Assembly: GCF_900070205.1 (NCBI RefSeq)
Contig: NZ_FAOO01000009.1
Coordinates: 1-64,000 of the forward strand
From: Candidatus Thermokryptus mobilis
GTDB taxonomy: Bacteria; Bacteroidota; Ignavibacteria; Kryptoniales; Kryptoniaceae
Length of the DNA stretch: 64,000 nucleotides
Direction of reading: 5' to 3'
Shown: positions 35,391 to 52,210 of the stretch, piece by piece
Layout of the letters: every line of letters starts with the position of its first letter
How positions within the stretch are numbered: position 1 is the stretch's first letter
Made by a program: the position numbers and the translations under genes
Notes under the pieces: model-generated
What the model saw: the letters and a program-made list of their open reading frames with translations, nothing else
Databases searched by the model: none
Told to the model about the DNA's origin: nothing

Positions 35391-36041
35391 ATGCGTCTCA
35401 TCCTCTTTGGTCCGCCCGGAGTTGGAAAGGGAACCCAAGCCCAAATCCTTTCTCAAAAACTTAACATCCCACATATATCAACTGGGGATATACTTCGCGA
35501 AGCGGTAAAAAATCAAACAGAACTCGGGCTTAAAGCAAAATCGTTTATGGACAAAGGTGAACTCGTCCCGGATGATGTGATGATAGGTATAATAAAAGAG
35601 GTGCTCTCATCCGAAAAATGCAAAAGCGGTTTTATACTTGATGGTTTCCCCAGAACGATAAACCAAGCAAAGGCGCTTGATGAAATTTTTGATGAGCTTA
35701 ACATAAAACTTGACTATGTCATAAGCATTGAGGTTGATGACGACGAAATAATTAAACGCCTAACAAATCGGCGCACTTGCAGAAATTGCGGGGCTGTTTA
35801 CAATTTGCTTATTGATCATATCCCAGAAGATAATAAATGCCCAAGGTGCGGTGGCGAACTTTATCAAAGAAGCGATGATAACCCGGATGTCATAAAAAAC
35901 AGATTGAAAGTTTACAGGGAATCAACCCAAATACTACTTGAATATTATGACAAAAAAAACATCTTGAAAAAAATAAATGGCGTCGGAGAGATAAACCACA
36001 TAACTAAACTAATCCTTCAAAGCATCGGAGTTAAAGATTAG
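35391..36041 (+). CDS. adk: Adenylate kinase (zinc-LID type)
   Basis: The enzyme equilibrates ATP + AMP with 2 ADP. The P-loop FGPPGVGKGTQA, AMP-site ISTGDILREAV and DGFPRTINQAKA motifs are clear. The LID carries four cysteines (CRNCGAVYN and CPRCGGELYQR), a structural zinc site usual in Gram-positives and thermophiles. Length 216 is normal. It lies 17 bases after rlmN. Confidence 0.96.
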   Translation: MRLILFGPPGVGKGTQAQILSQKLNIPHISTGDILREAVKNQTELGLKAKSFMDKGELVPDDVMIGIIKEVLSSEKCKSGFILDGFPRTINQAKALDEIFDELNIKLDYVISIEVDDDEIIKRLTNRRTCRNCGAVYNLLIDHIPEDNKCPRCGGELYQRSDDNPDVIKNRLKVYRESTQILLEYYDKKNILKKINGVGEINHITKLILQSIGVKD

Positions 36042-36110
36042 AATTTTTTTGTTGCGATTTTTTTTATATTATCCACATCAATGGGTTCGTTCAACTAAAA
36101 ATTTGAGAAG

Positions 36111-38132
36111 ATGATGTCGGAACTTGAAAAACTCAAGCGGGAAAATGAGCTTCTTCGGAAAAATCTTGAAAATTTGATGCGCATAACCGAAAACCTCGTC
36201 AGTACTCTTGAAATAGATGAACTCCTTGAAACACTTGTGGGTCGCCTTGCCGAGATTACAAATTCAGATGGCACAGCGATTGCTCTCTTTGATGACGGAA
36301 ACCTCACTATTAAGAAGGCAACCGGCGTAATTGCAAAACTTGCTGGCTTAAAATTACCTAAAGAAGAGAGCTTCTCGTGGAGAATTATAAATGAAGGAAA
36401 AACCATTTACCAAAGGACAGAAGAACCCACCTCTAAAATTTACATAGATATAAAAGACCTTGGTATTTCAACAAGCTTGGGTATCCCATTGAAAAGGTTT
36501 AACAGAGTGATAGGAGTTTTATCCCTGCACTGGCTCAAACCCTATACCCCAACTGAAGAAGAGATACATCTACTTGAGGTCACCGCGGAAAGAATCACTT
36601 TATCTATAATGAATGCCCAACAATTTGAGCAAATCAAGCTTCAAGCACAACTTATTGATCTTTCGCCATCTGCTTTAATAGTCGGAGATTTGAACGATAT
36701 GATAATGTTCTGGAATAAATCAGCCGAGGAAATTTATGGATATACAAAAGAAGAAGCAATCGGAAAGAATATAACGGACTTAATTTACAAGCCAGAGCAT
36801 CTTGAGGATTATTTCAAGGCAAAGGATATCACGCTTAAAGATGGGAAATGGAGCGGGGAGTTAAAACAAAAGACAAAAGATGGACGAACGATAACAGTTT
36901 GGTCAAATTTTAAACTTTTGATCGATGACGAGGGAAGACAGGTTAAAATTTTGGTCGCAAATACAAATATAACCGAAAAGAAGAAAATTGAAGCACTTTT
37001 AAACCGAGCCCAGCGACTTGAAGCCATTGGACGACTTGCAGCTGGGATAGCTCACGATCTAAATAACATATTACAGCCAATAACAATGGCCTCAGAGATA
37101 CTCAGGCGAAGGTCAAGGGATGAGGCGGAGCAAAGATATATTGAAATAATCAATCTCTCAGCGCAAAGAGGTGCGCAACTTGTGAAACAGATCTTGACAT
37201 TTTCCAAAGGGATAAGTGGTGAAAAAGGAATCGTTCAGGTCAAACACTTGATAAGGGAAGTTGAAACGATTTTGAAGGAAACCTTCCCTAAAAACATAAA
37301 GATTGAAGTTGACATCCAAAAAGACCTGTGGGAAGTCGTCGCCGACCCTAATCAAATAATGCAAGTTTTAATGAACCTATGTGTAAACGCAAAAGATGCC
37401 ATGCCAAATGGCGGTAAGCTAGCTATAAAGGCACAAAACTTAACGCTTGACAATCACTATGCAACTCAAATCTCGGGTATAAAACCAGGTCCATATATAC
37501 TCATAACCGTTGAAGACACAGGAGTTGGAATACCAGCGGAGATAATTGACAAAATTTTTGATCCCTTCTTCACAACTAAAGAACCAGAAAAAGGAACAGG
37601 GCTTGGTCTTTCAACTGTAAACAACATCATAAAAGAACATGATGGTTTTATAAATGTATATAGCGAGGTTGGGAAAGGAACTATTTTCAAAGTTTATCTC
37701 CCAGCATCAAGTGGGGAAATAAAACCGGCAATTGAAGAAATCACCGAGGAAATTACCGTTGGCGATCAGGAGTTAATACTCATCGCTGAAGACGAAGCTC
37801 CTATTTGCTTGATGATAAAAACAGTACTTGAAGATAATAATTATAGAACTATAACCGCAAATAACGGTGCTGAAGCGCTTGTAAAATTCATACAAAATAA
37901 AGATGAAATTGCCCTCATCATCGTCGACCTTGGGATGCCAGTTATGGATGGTGCAGAACTCATAAAAACTGTCAGAAAAATAGAGCCAAAAGCTAAAATA
38001 ATAGCCACAAGTGGGCTTGCCACCCCGACAGCACTGCTTGACGAGGTTGTAAAAAATATATCTGCATTCATTCAAAAACCTTTTGATGCAAAAACCCTAC
38101 TCAAAGAGACGACAAGAGTGTTAAAATCTTGA
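36111..38132 (+). CDS. Hybrid histidine kinase: GAF-PAS-HK-receiver
   Basis: This cytoplasmic sensor of 673 residues has a coiled-coil start and a GAF domain (about 30-175). A PAS domain (about 180-295; [20 protein letters not shown], then [16 protein letters not shown]) follows. HisKA has His315 ([13 protein letters not shown]), and the ATPase domain has [22 protein letters not shown] and [10 protein letters not shown]-terminal receiver has Asp606 ([12 protein letters not shown]). There is no membrane helix. The layout resembles CckA-like kinases, but no phosphotransfer partner lies beside it. A TATATT at 36065-36070 lacks a matching -35. Confidence 0.9.
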
Positions 38133-38229
38133 ATTCAAACCTCAAAAATATTTCCTATCTTCCCTCTTGCCTTTGACGAAAATTTTGCTTATTAATAATT
38201 GGATAGCGATTTTGCTCGTGTTGATAAGT

Positions 38230-38464
38230 TGTGGATAACTTTAAAGATTTTTGAAATAAATTTTTAAGTAAAAAGTCGCAAACTCAAGTTTATTTTGGAA
38301 GGATGTGGATAATTTTCGTTGGAAGTTTGAAAAATTACAAAAAATCAATCGTTTTTTGCAGAATAGGGATGTGGATAACTTTGTGGATAATGTGGATAAC
38401 GACTTGAATTTGACACTATGAGTTATCAACAAGTTATCCACAATTTTCGTGAAAATGTGGATAA
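38230..38464. other. oriC: Replication origin, upstream half: DnaA-box cluster
   Basis: The 358 bases between the kinase and dnaA hold no gene. They do hold six TGTGGATAA boxes (starts 38230, 38304, 38370, 38382, 38391, 38456), one inverted TTATCCACA (38434-38442) and a TTATCAACA (38423-38431). The boxes at 38370, 38382 and 38391 are almost contiguous, as in cooperative DnaA arrays. TTATCCACA is the consensus DnaA box. Together with the cluster on the other side of dnaA this marks oriC. The same boxes probably let DnaA repress its own promoter. Confidence 0.88.
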
Positions 38465-38490
38465 GTCAAAAATAAAAAATTTGAATAAAA

Positions 38491-39990
38491 ATGGACTCGT
38501 TAAACGAAAAAGAAGTTAAGGCTAATAGCGAGCTAACCAATGAACCCTCCTCCCAAAAAGGTTTGGTTGACGCAAAAGCTGTATGGGATGAATGTCTTTC
38601 AATAATCAAGGATAATATCAACCCCCTGAGCTTTAAAACATGGTTTGAACCGATTGTCCCTTTAAAAGTTGAGGGAAAACAGCTTACGATTCAAGTACCA
38701 AGTCAATTTTTTTATGAATGGCTTGAGGAACATTATTACGGGTTGATCAAGAAGACCTTGGCGAAAGTTTTAGGTGAAGGGGCAAAGCTTGTTTATTCCG
38801 TCGTGATGGAAAATTCATCAATAGACGAGCCTAAGGCGATTATAAATTTACCATCCGTTCCAAAACCGACAAAGTCACCATCAAGTCAAGTTCAAACTCA
38901 CTCAATTCAAGTTAAATCCCCATCCGAATATGAAGCATTTGACGCTGATATTTTCGGAAAAACAAATTTAAATCCAAGATATACATTTGATAATTTTGTA
39001 AAAGGTGATTGCAATCAACTTGCACGAGCAGCTGCTCTTGCGGTTGCGAATAACCCTGGAGGGACATCTTTTAATCCGCTTTTGGTTTATGGAGGTGTTG
39101 GGCTTGGGAAAACACACTTGATCCAGGCGATAGGTAATTATGTGCTTGCAAATAAAAAGGCAACAAGAGTTTATTATGTATCAAGCGAAAAATTCACAAT
39201 TGATTTCGTTGAGGCGATCCAAAAGGATAAGGTCAACGAGTTTTCAAATTTCTATAAAAGTATGGATGTCTTGATAGTTGATGACATTCAATTCCTTGCC
39301 GGGAAAGAAAAGACACAGGATAATTTCTTTCACATATTTAATGCTTTACATCAAGCGAGAAAACAAATAGTTCTCTCCAGCGATAGACCCCCGAAGGAGC
39401 TGAAAGGTGTTGATGAGAGATTAATTTCGCGGTTTCAATGGGGATTGATCGCTGATATTCAACCACCGGACCTTGAAACGAGAATAGCAATTTTAAAGAA
39501 AAAAGCCGAGGATAATGGGATAGAACTTCCACAAGAAGTAATTGAATATATAGCGGTTCATATAACATCAAATATAAGGGAGCTTGAAGGTTGTCTTATA
39601 AGTTTGCTTGCGAAATCGTCGCTTGAAAATAGAAAAATTGACATTGAACTTGCAAAGGAAGTCGTTAGAACAATTGTCAAAGATACATCGGTCAATGTCA
39701 CAATTGAAGAGATTCAGCGAATCGTTTGTGAATATTTTGGAATCCCGACGGATATGCTTAAAGCAAAAACAAGAAAGCAAGAAGTCGCTATAGCAAGACA
39801 AATAGCGATGTATCTTTGCAAGGAACTTACCGACTCATCTTTGAAAACAATCGGTTTACACTTCGGGGGAAGAGACCATAGCACCGTAATTCATGCTTGT
39901 CAATCGGTTGAAGATGAAATGAAAAGGAACGAGAAATTCAGGAATCTCGTGGAACAATTGAGAAGAAAAATTGAATTTAACTCAAAATAA
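38491..39990 (+). CDS. dnaA: Chromosomal replication initiator DnaA
   Basis: DnaA binds the boxes around it and opens the origin. Domain I is at about 26-110 (DECLSIIKDNINPLSFKTWF) and a linker to about 160. The AAA+ domain III has Walker A GGVGLGKTHLIQ, Walker B VLIVDDIQFLAGK and sensor SSDRPPKEL. The DNA-binding domain IV has the signature GGRDHSTVIHACQSVE. Length 499 is normal. No strong ribosome site precedes the ATG. Confidence 0.97.
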   Translation: MDSLNEKEVKANSELTNEPSSQKGLVDAKAVWDECLSIIKDNINPLSFKTWFEPIVPLKVEGKQLTIQVPSQFFYEWLEEHYYGLIKKTLAKVLGEGAKLVYSVVMENSSIDEPKAIINLPSVPKPTKSPSSQVQTHSIQVKSPSEYEAFDADIFGKTNLNPRYTFDNFVKGDCNQLARAAALAVANNPGGTSFNPLLVYGGVGLGKTHLIQAIGNYVLANKKATRVYYVSSEKFTIDFVEAIQKDKVNEFSNFYKSMDVLIVDDIQFLAGKEKTQDNFFHIFNALHQARKQIVLSSDRPPKELKGVDERLISRFQWGLIADIQPPDLETRIAILKKKAEDNGIELPQEVIEYIAVHITSNIRELEGCLISLLAKSSLENRKIDIELAKEVVRTIVKDTSVNVTIEEIQRIVCEYFGIPTDMLKAKTRKQEVAIARQIAMYLCKELTDSSLKTIGLHFGGRDHSTVIHACQSVEDEMKRNEKFRNLVEQLRRKIEFNSK

Positions 39991-39996
39991 CAGCAA

Positions 39997-40252
39997 TGTT
40001 GATAACTTTGTTGATAAGTTGTTAATTGCTGTGGATTCGCTGTTGAAAAGTCATAAAGTTATCCACATTTGAGATGTGGATAACTTCAAAATGTTGATAA
40101 AGTTAGAGTTATCCACATTCAATTAACATGCCGTTATTGTTGGGTTTTATCTTGCTACCCCAAAATTAAGCGAAAACGAATTGTTTTTCAAGATAAATTT
40201 TGAAAATTCCCCACTTTGTTATTTTCTACAAAAAGTTATCCACATATCCACA
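39997..40252. other. oriC: Replication origin, downstream half: DnaA boxes and AT-rich stretch
   Basis: This gene-free sequence after dnaA (39991-40296) holds TTATCCACA at 40059, 40109 and 40236, TGTGGATAA at 40075, TGTTGATAA at 39997, 40009 and 40092, and a weaker ATATCCACA at 40244. It ends in a very AT-rich run (about 40256-40285, TAATTAATAATCTTATAATA), a candidate unwinding element. Box clusters on both sides of dnaA define a bipartite origin. Confidence 0.85.
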
Positions 40253-40296
40253 CTGCTAATTAATAATCTTATAATAAATAAAAGACAAAAAACTAA

Positions 40297-40626
40297 TTAA
40301 GATTTAACTGATTCTATAGCTTGAACTATAAGTGGGTAGTACCTATCAAGTGCACACTCAACCGAATTTCTCAATTCGCAAACACCATCTTCTGTTTCCC
40401 GACATTCTTTGCAGATATTCTCTCGCAGAGCGTTTACATAGTCATCCATTTTATCGCTTTTAACCGAAAGAACAACCTTCACAATTTTTGGAAAATATTC
40501 CTTAACTCCACACATTGACCTTTCCGAAATCCTACAAATGCCATTTCCATGCGGATCGCTATCAATGCAAACTTTGCAAACTATGTTTTGAACCGCAAGC
40601 CAATATTTTTCAAGTTCAAGTGTCAT
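40297..40626 (-). CDS. Cysteine-rich duplicated protein (109 aa), unknown function
   Basis: I do not recognise the family. The protein is an internal duplication. VCKVCIDSDPHGNGICRISE with SMCGVKEYFPKIVKVV matches ICKECRETEDGVCELRNSVE with CALDRYYPLIVQAI. Each half has the same C-x2-C-x(8-11)-C-x(6-7)-C array followed by a helix. Four cysteines per half suggest two metal sites (zinc or iron-sulfur). It is cytosolic with no signal. A strong AAGGAGC ribosome site precedes the ATG. It stands alone beside the origin. Confidence 0.72.
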   Translation of the reverse strand: MTLELEKYWLAVQNIVCKVCIDSDPHGNGICRISERSMCGVKEYFPKIVKVVLSVKSDKMDDYVNALRENICKECRETEDGVCELRNSVECALDRYYPLIVQAIESVKS

Positions 40627-40699
40627 AGTAGCTCCTTAAAGTTTGTTTTTCAATTCTATTTTTAAAAATTCCCGTGAAAAAAGCAAGTTAAGTGTTGTT

Positions 40700-40728
40700 T
40701 TGATTTTTTGAAGAGGTATTGCTACATT
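40700..40728 (+). promoter_or_regulatory. Promoter for the 40759-43070 unit
   Basis: TTGATT (40700-40705), 17 bases and TACATT (40723-40728) lie 31 bases before the GTG start at 40759, matching the recurrent pattern in this window. Confidence 0.55.
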
Positions 40729-40758
40729 TAAAGTTGAAGAACAAATTTATCCTTAAGC

Positions 40759-41517
40759 GTGAGATTAAACGGAAATTTTCCAAGAAATTTAACGGATAGA
40801 GAGCTTGATTGGATTTTGTGGATGTTGCCATCTGAAAAATCAGGTTATAAGGATTATCGTTTGCTTATTGAGAAATCGGTTATCATTGGTTATGGAAAAT
40901 TTGAAGGGGATAATTTAATTCTTGGTCAAGTTGGGGACTTACCTGATGAGGAATCTTTTTTCACACCTGTTGTTTCACTTGGTCAGATAGAGACGCTTGA
41001 GGCGAAAATTCAAATTTCAATACATAAACCGCACAAGAACCAAATTCAAATTGATATTGTAAATCTCAATGGGGAGACCATTCCTGATGAGATTACCGAG
41101 GTAAGGAGATGGAGCTATTCAAGGTGGAATCCGGGAGAGCCATCTCCAGCGACAGGGAAACCGGTAAGGGAGGTTAGAATTTTTTCAAAATCTGAAAGCA
41201 ATTTAATACTTGTTTTAAGTCCGTCGGATAAGAAGATATGGTTACACGAGATTGATTCGGGGATAAATTACATAATTCCGGTTACAAACTTTTTTAACGA
41301 GTTGATGAGACAGCGAAGGGATATTTTTGAAAAGATTGGGGGATTAAATGTTCCTTTGATTTTTGAAAACATTGATAAGTTCAGCGATGCGCAGATAAAC
41401 AATGCCTTTTTATCTTACAGCAAAATTTTTGGGAAGGTTGATGTTGGAGCATATGAGGAGATGAAGGAGAAAAAGGGGTTTCTTGATTTTTTGAAAAGAA
41501 AGTTTAAAGGGGGATGA
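40759..41517 (+). CDS. Hypothetical protein (252 aa) upstream of kdsD
   Basis: I recognise no family. It is a soluble protein of about 29 kDa without signal or membrane segments. It has a conserved-looking N-terminus (NLTDRELDWILWMLPSEKSG) and a tryptophan-rich middle (RRWSYSRWNPGEPSPATGKP). The C-terminal helical part ends in basic KKGFLDFLKRKFKGG, possibly a membrane-touching amphipathic helix. The start is GTG 40759, behind a promoter. kdsD follows after three bases, so a link with lipopolysaccharide-sugar supply is possible but unproven. Confidence 0.7.
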   Translation: MRLNGNFPRNLTDRELDWILWMLPSEKSGYKDYRLLIEKSVIIGYGKFEGDNLILGQVGDLPDEESFFTPVVSLGQIETLEAKIQISIHKPHKNQIQIDIVNLNGETIPDEITEVRRWSYSRWNPGEPSPATGKPVREVRIFSKSESNLILVLSPSDKKIWLHEIDSGINYIIPVTNFFNELMRQRRDIFEKIGGLNVPLIFENIDKFSDAQINNAFLSYSKIFGKVDVGAYEEMKEKKGFLDFLKRKFKGG

Positions 41518-41520
41518 TTT

Positions 41521-42540
41521 ATGGACAAAGGGAAAATTGAAACAGAAAAAGATGTAATTGAAATAGGCAAGCGAGTTATAAGGATTGAAGCAAATGCGGT
41601 TGCGGAACTTGAAGATAGGATTGATGAAAGTTTTGCAGAGGTTGTTGATTTGATTTTGGGGTCAACTGGAAGAGTTGTGATAACTGGTGTTGGTAAGTCG
41701 GGTATTATAGCGAGGAAAATAGTTGCGACTATGAATTCAACAGGAACACCTGCTCTTTATCTTCACCCAGCGGACGCCATCCATGGAGACCTTGGTGTTG
41801 TGCGAAAGGAAGATGTGGTCATTTGTATTTCAAAGAGCGGGGACACGGTTGAGGTCCTGCGTTTGATACCGATTTTTAAAAGGATCGGTGTTCCTGTGAT
41901 TTCAATGGTCGGGAATTTAAATTCACAACTTGCTCGCCTTTCTGATTATGTTTTGAATGTTTCCGTTAAAGAAGAAGCGTGTCCGTATAATTTAGCTCCG
42001 ACTGCTTCAACTACAGCAACTCTTGCGATGGGGGATGCGCTTGCGATTGCTCTTCTTGAAAAGAGGAACTTCACGGTTGAAAACTTCGCCTTGTTTCACC
42101 CGGGTGGAAATCTTGGGAAGAGGTTGCTTCTTAAAGTTAAGGAGTTGATGGTCTCAGGTAAAGATGTCCCCATTGTTCATACTTCAACACCTATGAAGGA
42201 GACGATAATTGAGATGACATCAAAACGACTTGGAGCAACATGTGTTGTTGATGATAAAGGAAAACTTGTCGGCATAATCACTGATGGAGATTTAAGGCGA
42301 CTTCTGCATAGGACTGAAAATGTTTTTGGCTTGACCGCCGGTGAAGTCATGACGAGAAATCCGAAGACAATTAAGGAAGATGCGCTCGCTGTTGTAGCTC
42401 TTCAAGAAATGGAACATTACAACATAACTCAACTTGTTGTCATTGACGATGAGCGATTTCCCATAGGTATGATTCACATTCACGATCTTGTGAAAGCGGG
42501 GTTAAGTTCATCTGAAACAGAGAACGAATTTGATCAATGA
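41521..42540 (+). CDS. kdsD: Arabinose-5-phosphate isomerase KdsD/KpsF
   Basis: This enzyme makes D-arabinose-5-phosphate from ribulose-5-phosphate for Kdo synthesis. The SIS domain shows VVITGVGKSGIIARKIVATM, NSTGTPALYLHPADAIHGDL, SKSGDTVEVL and LFHPGGNLGKRLL. Two CBS domains follow (VVDDKGKLVGIITDGDLRRL; VIDDERFPIGMIHIHDLVKA). Length 339 is standard. The lptC start overlaps its stop (ATGA). Confidence 0.94.
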   Translation: MDKGKIETEKDVIEIGKRVIRIEANAVAELEDRIDESFAEVVDLILGSTGRVVITGVGKSGIIARKIVATMNSTGTPALYLHPADAIHGDLGVVRKEDVVICISKSGDTVEVLRLIPIFKRIGVPVISMVGNLNSQLARLSDYVLNVSVKEEACPYNLAPTASTTATLAMGDALAIALLEKRNFTVENFALFHPGGNLGKRLLLKVKELMVSGKDVPIVHTSTPMKETIIEMTSKRLGATCVVDDKGKLVGIITDGDLRRLLHRTENVFGLTAGEVMTRNPKTIKEDALAVVALQEMEHYNITQLVVIDDERFPIGMIHIHDLVKAGLSSSETENEFDQ

Positions 42541-43070
42541 AGATAAAAACGATGTTTTTTATTCTTGCCCTTGTATTTTCAAGTTGTGAAGAGAAAATCA
42601 AACCTTCAATCGTTCATCTTTCCGATGTTCAAATCCCATCTCAAGAGTCGTGGAATGCAACCATCGTTTTTAGCGATTCAGGAAAAATTAGGGCTGTTTT
42701 GAAGGCTAGTCATATCCTTGTATTTCAAGATCAAGATGTGACAGTTTTAAATCAAGGTTTTAGAGTTGATTTTTATGATGAAAACGGGAAGCATACATCG
42801 TATTTGATCGCAGATAGCGGTAGAGTTAACGAGAGGACCAAAAATCTTGAGGCGTATGGGAACATAGTTGCTGTCTCCGACGAGGGAACGCGTGTTGAGA
42901 CAACTCGTCTTTTCTGGGATAATGAAAGAAATAAAGTCCGCTCGGATGCTTTTGTTAAGGTGACATCACCAAATGAGATTTTACAGGGTTATGGTTTTGA
43001 AGCGGACCAGGATTTGAAAAATTATGTCGTCTATAAAGTAAGTGGACAAGCGAGGGTTGAGGAAAAGTAG
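42537..43070 (+). CDS. lptC: LPS-export protein LptC (lipoprotein form)
   Basis: This 177-residue envelope protein of the lipopolysaccharide bridge has a lipoprotein signal (FFILALVFSSCEEK, lipobox cysteine near residue 17). The LptC/OstA-like beta-jellyroll follows (SGKIRAVLKASHILVFQDQD, then YLIADSGRVNERTKNLEAYG and DNERNKVRSDAFVKVTSPNE). A lipoprotein anchor instead of a membrane helix is common in Bacteroidota-like bacteria. It is coupled to kdsD. lptA and lptB are not in the window. Confidence 0.85.
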   Translation: MKIKTMFFILALVFSSCEEKIKPSIVHLSDVQIPSQESWNATIVFSDSGKIRAVLKASHILVFQDQDVTVLNQGFRVDFYDENGKHTSYLIADSGRVNERTKNLEAYGNIVAVSDEGTRVETTRLFWDNERNKVRSDAFVKVTSPNEILQGYGFEADQDLKNYVVYKVSGQARVEEK

Positions 43071-50454: not shown

Positions 50455-52210
50455 GTTCATCCGCTTTCTTTTGCTCATTTTGATCATTAAAGAAAGTGTT
50501 TTGACTCAAGGATATAGTTTTTTTAATCCCGTTGCCGATTCGCTTTTTAAAGCAGGCGTTGAACTTTTCAAATTCGGTTTGAATTCCAGAGGACATTTAG
50601 CTGATACCTCAGGGGGGAGGGAATACTTCTTAAACGCATATTTAAAATTTGATTCCGTTATTTCTCTTGGTTTGAATCACCGAACGACAGCAAGTTATCT
50701 TATGGCTTCAAAGTCGCTTTGTTATCTTAACAGATTTGCAGATGCGGGTAACTTATTGAGGGATTTTCTGTCAAAGTTCCCCGAGAGCGAATATGTTGAA
50801 GATGCTCATTATACGCTTGGGCTGATTTACTTCAAGCTTGGAGATTTAGATGACGCTTTGCTTGAGATTGATAGGTCTATTCAAGTTTCAAAAAGTGATC
50901 CAACGAAGTATAAAAGAGTTATTTCTGCACTTATTGATTCGGTTGATTTGACCACGCTTCAAAAGCTTGCGGATAAGGTTTCATCCACCGAGGTTAAATA
51001 TCTTGTAGTTGTAAAAGTAGCGGATAAAATCGCTCTTTCTGGGAAATATGAAGATGCGAAAAAATACATCGCGGACAGGTTGAGATATTTTAGTGGGACT
51101 GAATTTTACGAGAGATTGATGTTTAAAATTTCGTATTACGAACGCCTTCTAGCTCGTCCAGAGGTTAAAATAGGTGTTTTGCTCCCCGAGCGACAAAGCT
51201 TAAGTGAATCAATTTTAAAAGGTATTGAACTTGCCGTTGAGCAACATAATTTAAATTTCAGCCCCAAGGTTGGGATTGAGCTCAGGTATTATAATTCACT
51301 TGATATTGACAGGAAGGTTTTGTCTTTCAAGAAAGTTCCTGAGGTCTCTGCGATAATTGGACCAGTTTACAGTGAAGATGTTCAAATTTGTGCGAGGTTC
51401 ATCAACGATTTAAAAATACCTTTGATTTCACCGACAGCCACATCGGATGGTTTAGCTGATTTAAGCGATTACATTTTTCAGTTGAATTCCGATTTTACGA
51501 CTAGGGCAAGGGCTATAGCACAGTTTGCGGTTTTTTCGCTTGGGTTGAAATACTTTTTTGTTCTCGCACCGAACGATAAAAGGATAAAACCATTCGTTGA
51601 TGCTTTTGTTGATGAAGTTAAGTTGGATTCCGGTCAAGTGATGAAAATTCAGTTTTACAATCCAGATGAAACGGACCTTCGCGGTTATTTTAGGGAGATG
51701 AAAGCTGTTCTTGATTCCTTTAAAGTTCCGTTGGATATTGTCGGGCTTTTTGCTCCAATTTTAAATTCCGACTTCATCGGTATAATCACCTCACAGGTCT
51801 TTTACCACGATATGAATGTTAAAATTTTGGGCAACGATATCTGGAACAATTTTAATGAACTTTACCTAAACAGGAGATACACCGATGGAGTTGTATTCAC
51901 TGCTGGTTGGAAAGTTGATTTTGAGTCACAAGCATATAAAAACTTCGTAAAGGTTTTTAAAGATAGATATGGAGTTGAACCGGACGAGTTATCCATTTAC
52001 GGTTATGATACTGCGAGATTTCTTTTGGAAGTGATAAAGGCGGGAATGTTAACACCTGGCGAAGTTTATAATGCGATTAAGAAAGTGGAATTTTTCGGCA
52101 TAGGCAGGGATATCGTGTTTGAAGATGGGCGTGTCAACAGGTCAATTGCGATTCTTGTTTTTAAAGATAATTTAATACGGAGGTTAACTCAATGGACGAT
52201 AAAAAAGTAA
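50447..52210 (+). CDS. TPR plus periplasmic-binding-fold protein (LpoA-like or branched-amino-acid-type receptor)
   Basis: This 587-residue secreted protein has a signal peptide (about 1-21, FIRFLLLILIIKESVLTQ) and helical TPR-like repeats at about 30-235 (YVEDAHYTLGLIYFKLGDLD). A type I periplasmic-binding domain starts near 240 (VKIGVLLPERQSLSESILKG, then SAIIGPVYSEDVQICARFIN and DELSIYGYDTARFLLEVI). TPR followed by this fold is the layout of LpoA, the activator of penicillin-binding protein 1a. A metabolite receptor is the alternative. There is no lipobox cysteine, unlike LpoA. Its end overlaps radC by 19 bases. Confidence 0.75.
   Translation: MVKFIRFLLLILIIKESVLTQGYSFFNPVADSLFKAGVELFKFGLNSRGHLADTSGGREYFLNAYLKFDSVISLGLNHRTTASYLMASKSLCYLNRFADAGNLLRDFLSKFPESEYVEDAHYTLGLIYFKLGDLDDALLEIDRSIQVSKSDPTKYKRVISALIDSVDLTTLQKLADKVSSTEVKYLVVVKVADKIALSGKYEDAKKYIADRLRYFSGTEFYERLMFKISYYERLLARPEVKIGVLLPERQSLSESILKGIELAVEQHNLNFSPKVGIELRYYNSLDIDRKVLSFKKVPEVSAIIGPVYSEDVQICARFINDLKIPLISPTATSDGLADLSDYIFQLNSDFTTRARAIAQFAVFSLGLKYFFVLAPNDKRIKPFVDAFVDEVKLDSGQVMKIQFYNPDETDLRGYFREMKAVLDSFKVPLDIVGLFAPILNSDFIGIITSQVFYHDMNVKILGNDIWNNFNELYLNRRYTDGVVFTAGWKVDFESQAYKNFVKVFKDRYGVEPDELSIYGYDTARFLLEVIKAGMLTPGEVYNAIKKVEFFGIGRDIVFEDGRVNRSIAILVFKDNLIRRLTQWTIKK

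Follow-up and report, generated by a model that had tools for sequence, protein, structure and literature searches.

Work on split chromosomal origins has centered on Bacillota, Mollicutes and Helicobacter, and one half of such origins has been proposed to feed DnaA to the half that unwinds. The reason for the split is described as unknown (PMC4285127). In Bacillus subtilis oriC (incAB, dnaA, incC), box clusters lie on both sides of dnaA, and the far downstream edge carries the basal unwinding system (BUS), in which a tandem box pair is followed by a short GC-rich spacer, DnaA-trios and AT-rich DNA (PMC6669920, PMC8287927). Helicobacter pylori, with its oriC1-dnaA-oriC2 layout, also unwinds on the downstream side, at a trio followed by AT-rich DNA (PMC8235120). 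Clostridioides difficile has box clusters in both halves and a clear trio limited to the downstream half (PMC7561715).

The locus described here, part of a 64,000-nucleotide stretch of DNA (the window), resembles all three, and its division by dnaA, suggested by a first-pass annotation, is thus of a known kind. It is likely, in our judgement, to be the chromosomal oriC of a Bacteroidota-related bacterium, split by dnaA, with opening at a BUS on the downstream edge and an upstream half that helps and serves autoregulation. The differences lie in the details. Whereas dnaA and dnaN are neighbors in C. difficile (PMC7561715), and in contrast to B. subtilis, dnaN does not follow dnaA here but lies on contig C2. 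The tandem pair of B. subtilis corresponds here to two boxes that overlap by one base. H. pylori has fewer boxes, of the form TYATTCACN (PMC8235120), against 9 + 8 sites of the form TTATCMACA at our locus. Finally, the trios are degenerate in this genus, unlike those of B. subtilis or the near-perfect CTA trios of C. difficile (PMC7561715).

DnaA-box clusters flanking dnaA

At a threshold of at most one mismatch, the flanks of dnaA in the window contain 17 DnaA boxes, nine upstream and eight downstream. The gene and its boxes are arranged as follows.

38219..38238, minus strand: outermost upstream DnaA-box pair, TTATCCACA-AC-TTATCAACA, 11 bp apart, facing away from dnaA (box scan)
38304..38399, minus strand: four more outward-facing DnaA boxes, at 38304, 38370, 38382 and 38391 (box scan and conservation)
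38423..38442, plus strand: inner DnaA-box pair, 11 bp apart, facing dnaA (box scan and conservation)
38456..38464, minus strand: DnaA box closest to the dnaA start (box scan and conservation)
38491..39990, plus strand: dnaA, 499 aa, with DnaA_N, ATPase and helix-turn-helix domains (TIGR00362, E 9.6e-173)
39997..40017, minus strand: two TTATCAACA boxes directly past the dnaA stop (box scan and conservation)
40059..40117, unstranded: four DnaA boxes, at 40059 (plus), 40075 (minus), 40092 (minus) and 40109 (plus) (box scan and conservation)
40236..40252, plus strand: outermost downstream DnaA-box pair, TTATCCACATATCCACA, outward-facing, with a one-base overlap (conservation and homologous loci)

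Every box listed by the first-pass annotation is present: upstream, TGTGGATAA at 38230, 38304, 38370, 38382, 38391 and 38456, TTATCAACA at 38423 and TTATCCACA at 38434; downstream, TTATCCACA at 40059, 40109 and 40236, TGTGGATAA at 40075, and TGTTGATAA at 39997, 40009 and 40092. Two boxes can be added to that list. One is TGTTGATAA at 38219, which lies 11 bp away from the box at 38230; the other, ATATCCACA at 40244, shares one base with the 40236 box. Such a concentration is exceptional in this genome. The exact sequence TTATCCACA occurs 32 times in the whole 2.42-Mb draft, and 11 of these occurrences fall within the ~0.66 kb of the two dnaA flanks, whereas the other 21, taken as background, predict ~0.006 for that length. 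No second cluster of exact boxes was found in a scan of the entire draft.

Conservation among relatives extends to both halves. Six congeneric genomes were found, one of which (L090) covers the downstream side only, and both flanks were aligned after reverse-complementing L085 and L088. In this alignment, 84% of box columns upstream and 90% downstream are invariant, compared with 29% and 33% of other columns, and the variation inside boxes is mostly an exchange between TTATCCACA and TTATCAACA. The upstream boxes are conserved in number, orientation and spacing as well as the downstream boxes are. All five congeners whose sequence covers the upstream side retain the outermost pair there (38219/38230), and the 38382 box, which is gapped in the conservation table by a one-base indel, is found by direct scan to be kept in most congeners. 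The most conserved 25-mers lie at the inner box pair upstream (38423-38447, 0.94) and at 40075-40099 downstream (0.93); in the pair at 40236-40252, 16 of the 17 bases are invariant across seven genomes. Even the 74/66-bp spacing of the 38230, 38304 and 38370 boxes has a counterpart, 75/67 bp, in the distant relative L007.

We also read cumulative GC skew contig by contig in this draft genome and four congeners. On the 119,895-bp contig of this genome the minimum falls at 35,482, which is 3.0 kb upstream of dnaA, and in the first 400 kb of the G005 contig it falls at 174,538, 0.8 kb from dnaA at 175,344-176,765. The minima of the remaining three genomes lie 17-24 kb from dnaA: at 126,110 in G002 (first 300 kb; dnaA at 107,852), at 51,052 in G004 (dnaA at 71,809) and at 219,641 in G006 (dnaA at 194,202), the last having a near-equal minimum 3.1 kb upstream of the gene. 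In each of the five genomes, the switch from negative to positive skew, read at the contig level, thus lies no more than ~25 kb from dnaA. The skew comparison that the first-pass annotation had proposed as a check thus places the minimum not far from dnaA, at the ~25-kb resolution of draft contigs. Its main claim, a bipartite oriC split by dnaA, emerges as a well-supported reading of the sequence, given a box cluster unique in the genome, conservation on both sides among congeners, nearby skew minima in five genomes and a layout that recurs in distant genomes.

The overlapping pair and the adjoining candidate trio region

Beyond dnaA, three further elements bear on where the duplex might open.

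40118..40142, plus strand: conserved ATTAACA...GTTATT element past the 40109 box, a second, weaker trio-like candidate (alignment; trio-like runs)
40253..40274, plus strand: spacer and degenerate DnaA-trio region, CTGC TAA TTA ATA ATC TTA, probable unwinding start (run of four; homologous trios)
40257..40307, unstranded: AT-rich probable DNA-unwinding element (opens first in the destabilization model)

DnaA-trios are searched for as 3'-NAN-5', that is, as triplets with a middle T on the other strand, and box-to-trio spacers of 10-13 are the most common (PMC8287927). A BUS is recognized by a DnaA box, frequently a tandem pair, no more than 16 bp from the trios, by three or more trios in excess of chance, and by strand opening through DnaA that depends on both. 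In the window, the pair TTATCCACATATCCACA is followed by CTGC and then by TAATTAATAATCTTA. A trio-like run of four starts 7 nt past the second box and 15 nt past the first, which places the pair within that 16-bp distance. At the same place, three congeners have GCSC TTA TTA ATA ATC plus one more triplet, making five middle-T triplets for which the spacer, counted from the first box, is 12; the third triplet is broken in L085 and L089.

More distant relatives carry the same module in clearer form. The pair, exact or with few mismatches, occurs ~215-255 bp 3' of dnaA in the sister family, Ignavibacteriales and KSB1. Five to eight triplets stand at homologous positions in L086-L088, in the sister family (seven in each of six loci, L160, L162, L163 and L165-L167), in L001 of Ignavibacteriales (eight), in L007 (seven) and in the KSB1 loci L009 (five) and L033 (a perfect CTA series). 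Clear DnaA-trios are exemplified by CTACTACTACTACTACTA in a KSB1 bacterium. Because the homologous pair and its trios lie 3' of dnaA, we provisionally predict that the downstream half melts, next to the pair at 40236-40252; the argument draws on these homologs, as the three to four imperfect triplets of the window are not significant against shuffles.

A simple mean-field model of superhelical destabilization, run on 36000-43000 and on the congeners, points the same way for this genome. The segment predicted to open first is 40257-40307, so that the AT-rich stretch noticed near 40256-40285 in the first pass is real. The ranking among congeners is mixed: in several, another intergenic segment melts more easily, and in one it is the upstream flank. 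Within the downstream half, the element at 40118-40142, which shows trio-like runs of three to four in all seven loci, may offer a weaker alternative start site.

The genes next to the origin can be described briefly. A 109-aa convergent ORF (40297-40626, minus strand) starts where the AT-rich element ends; it matched no NCBIfam or Pfam family, can be aligned with congeners in its C-terminal part and has several Cys-x-x-Cys-like motifs. A 252-aa ORF (40759-41517, plus strand), likewise without a match in NCBIfam and Pfam searches, precedes kdsD. Directly upstream of the origin, 36111-38132 (plus strand) encodes a hybrid sensor kinase/receiver protein whose top NCBIfam match, the cell-cycle kinase CckA, is far below cut-off.

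Across the phylum, the overlapping pair was found in 26 of 396 genomes, while a reversed control gave one match; tandem pairs spaced by 9-12 bp are more frequent, the four spacings together occurring in 136 of 396 genomes. Once the repeats of G230 are excluded, the matches lie mostly inside box clusters, and a further box frequently precedes the pair by ~64 bp; eight loci, the window's own included, have dnaA beside the pair. In G202, G206, G281 and G391, the overlapping pair is accompanied, at a distance of ~1.8 kb, by an outward 11-bp pair on the other strand, which, to judge from the arrangement of boxes, is the same two-sided plan as in the window. Over all 26 loci, trios after the pair are not significant as a set (seven with runs of at least four; shuffle mean 3.3), because many of the matches lie outside origins or rely on different triplets, and the trio argument is therefore built on the loci found 3' of dnaA.

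Two groups of matches stand apart. In L173, L174, L175, L182, L185, L187, L188, L194, L196 and L198, the pair sits in a box cluster, with no dnaA found in the 3-kb locus; these are possible relocated origins. G230, of the same class, has at least 14 scattered copies (among them L186 and L199-L202) in which a CCGCAC...GTGCGGG-like stem surrounds the same overlapping DnaA-box-like pair, and these have the appearance of dispersed repeats of one family, not of origins.

The upstream half and dnaA expression

Between the sensor kinase gene and the outermost boxes lies one more conserved feature.

38156..38200, plus strand: conserved block before the outer boxes, probable dnaA promoter, TTGCCT-17-TATTAA (conservation, alignment)

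It includes the most conserved upstream 25-mer outside the boxes (38176-38200, 0.86), and the distant relatives L001 and L007 have TTGACT followed by TATAAT at the equivalent place. Since a strict sigma-70 scan for a dnaA promoter gave no match, it is this conservation that makes the block probably the dnaA promoter. The upstream boxes would therefore lie in the apparent dnaA leader. In the window, no trio-like run occurs in the 16 nt next to the outer pair at 38219/38230, and in the alignment the spacer between this pair and the next conserved block is variable. Because of this missing trio and the location in the apparent leader, the upstream half probably has autoregulation as a second role beside feeding DnaA to the unwinding half.

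Taken together, these features suggest how the locus may work. DnaA would fill the boxes in both flanks of dnaA, and the molecules bound to the pair at 40236-40252 would be directed to a single strand of the adjoining trio and AT-rich stretch, opening it in the manner of a BUS. The remaining downstream boxes and the cluster upstream of dnaA would concentrate DnaA locally, and they may form a loop with the site of unwinding. Bound between the apparent promoter and the start codon, DnaA on the upstream cluster would also repress its own gene.

Alternative readings and significance

A simpler origin would consist of the downstream cluster alone, the upstream cluster being purely an autoregulatory operator of dnaA and the origin not truly bipartite. 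The upstream boxes follow the conserved promoter-like block and precede the start codon, an arrangement that fits such an operator, as does the outer pair with no trio after it in the window. We nevertheless consider this unlikely. Upstream boxes as conserved as the downstream ones in number, orientation and spacing go beyond what a simple operator needs; four other genomes repeat the combination of outward 11-bp pair and overlapping pair ~1.8 kb apart; and melting in C. difficile requires both halves (PMC7561715).

It is highly improbable that the upstream half melts instead, with the AT-rich stretches beside its outer boxes as the unwinding element. No trio adjoins the outer pair, the spacer there is variable, and distant relatives have the pair-plus-trio module downstream, although in the model the AT-rich segment 38248-38267 ranks as the second most unstable in the window at the lowest stress, and in L087 a segment upstream of dnaA (1341-1389) opens first. 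The displaced skew minima of three congeners, and the occurrence of the overlapping pair away from dnaA in part of the phylum, might even suggest that the boxes form a DnaA titration or autoregulation region and that the real origin lies elsewhere in the genome. Against this, the genome has no further exact-box cluster and skew changes sign here in long contigs, which makes an origin elsewhere extremely improbable.

We thus retain the reading of an oriC split by dnaA, with a downstream unwinding edge. A broader proposal, to which we give an even chance, is that TTATCMACATATCMACA, a pair in 8-bp register, makes up, together with the trios and the short spacer before them, an ancient and recurring module for unwinding in Bacteroidota and neighboring groups (Ignavibacteria and KSB1), used beside dnaA and at relocated origins. 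If so, the module would represent a BUS box geometry previously undescribed. As a recurrent origin element, the overlapping pair may itself be undescribed: none of five sequence versions of it appeared in the literature text searched, a weak sign of novelty since such sequences are usually printed in figures, and literature searches on origin structure specific to Bacteroidota or Ignavibacteria returned nothing specific.

The clear split origin of this uncultured, unstudied Bacteroidota-related lineage adds another case to a known architecture. Its overlapping pair raises the question of how DnaA sits on two overlapping boxes. More broadly, the prediction of the melting half from a motif shared across phyla provides a testable landmark for origins in the draft genomes of this group.
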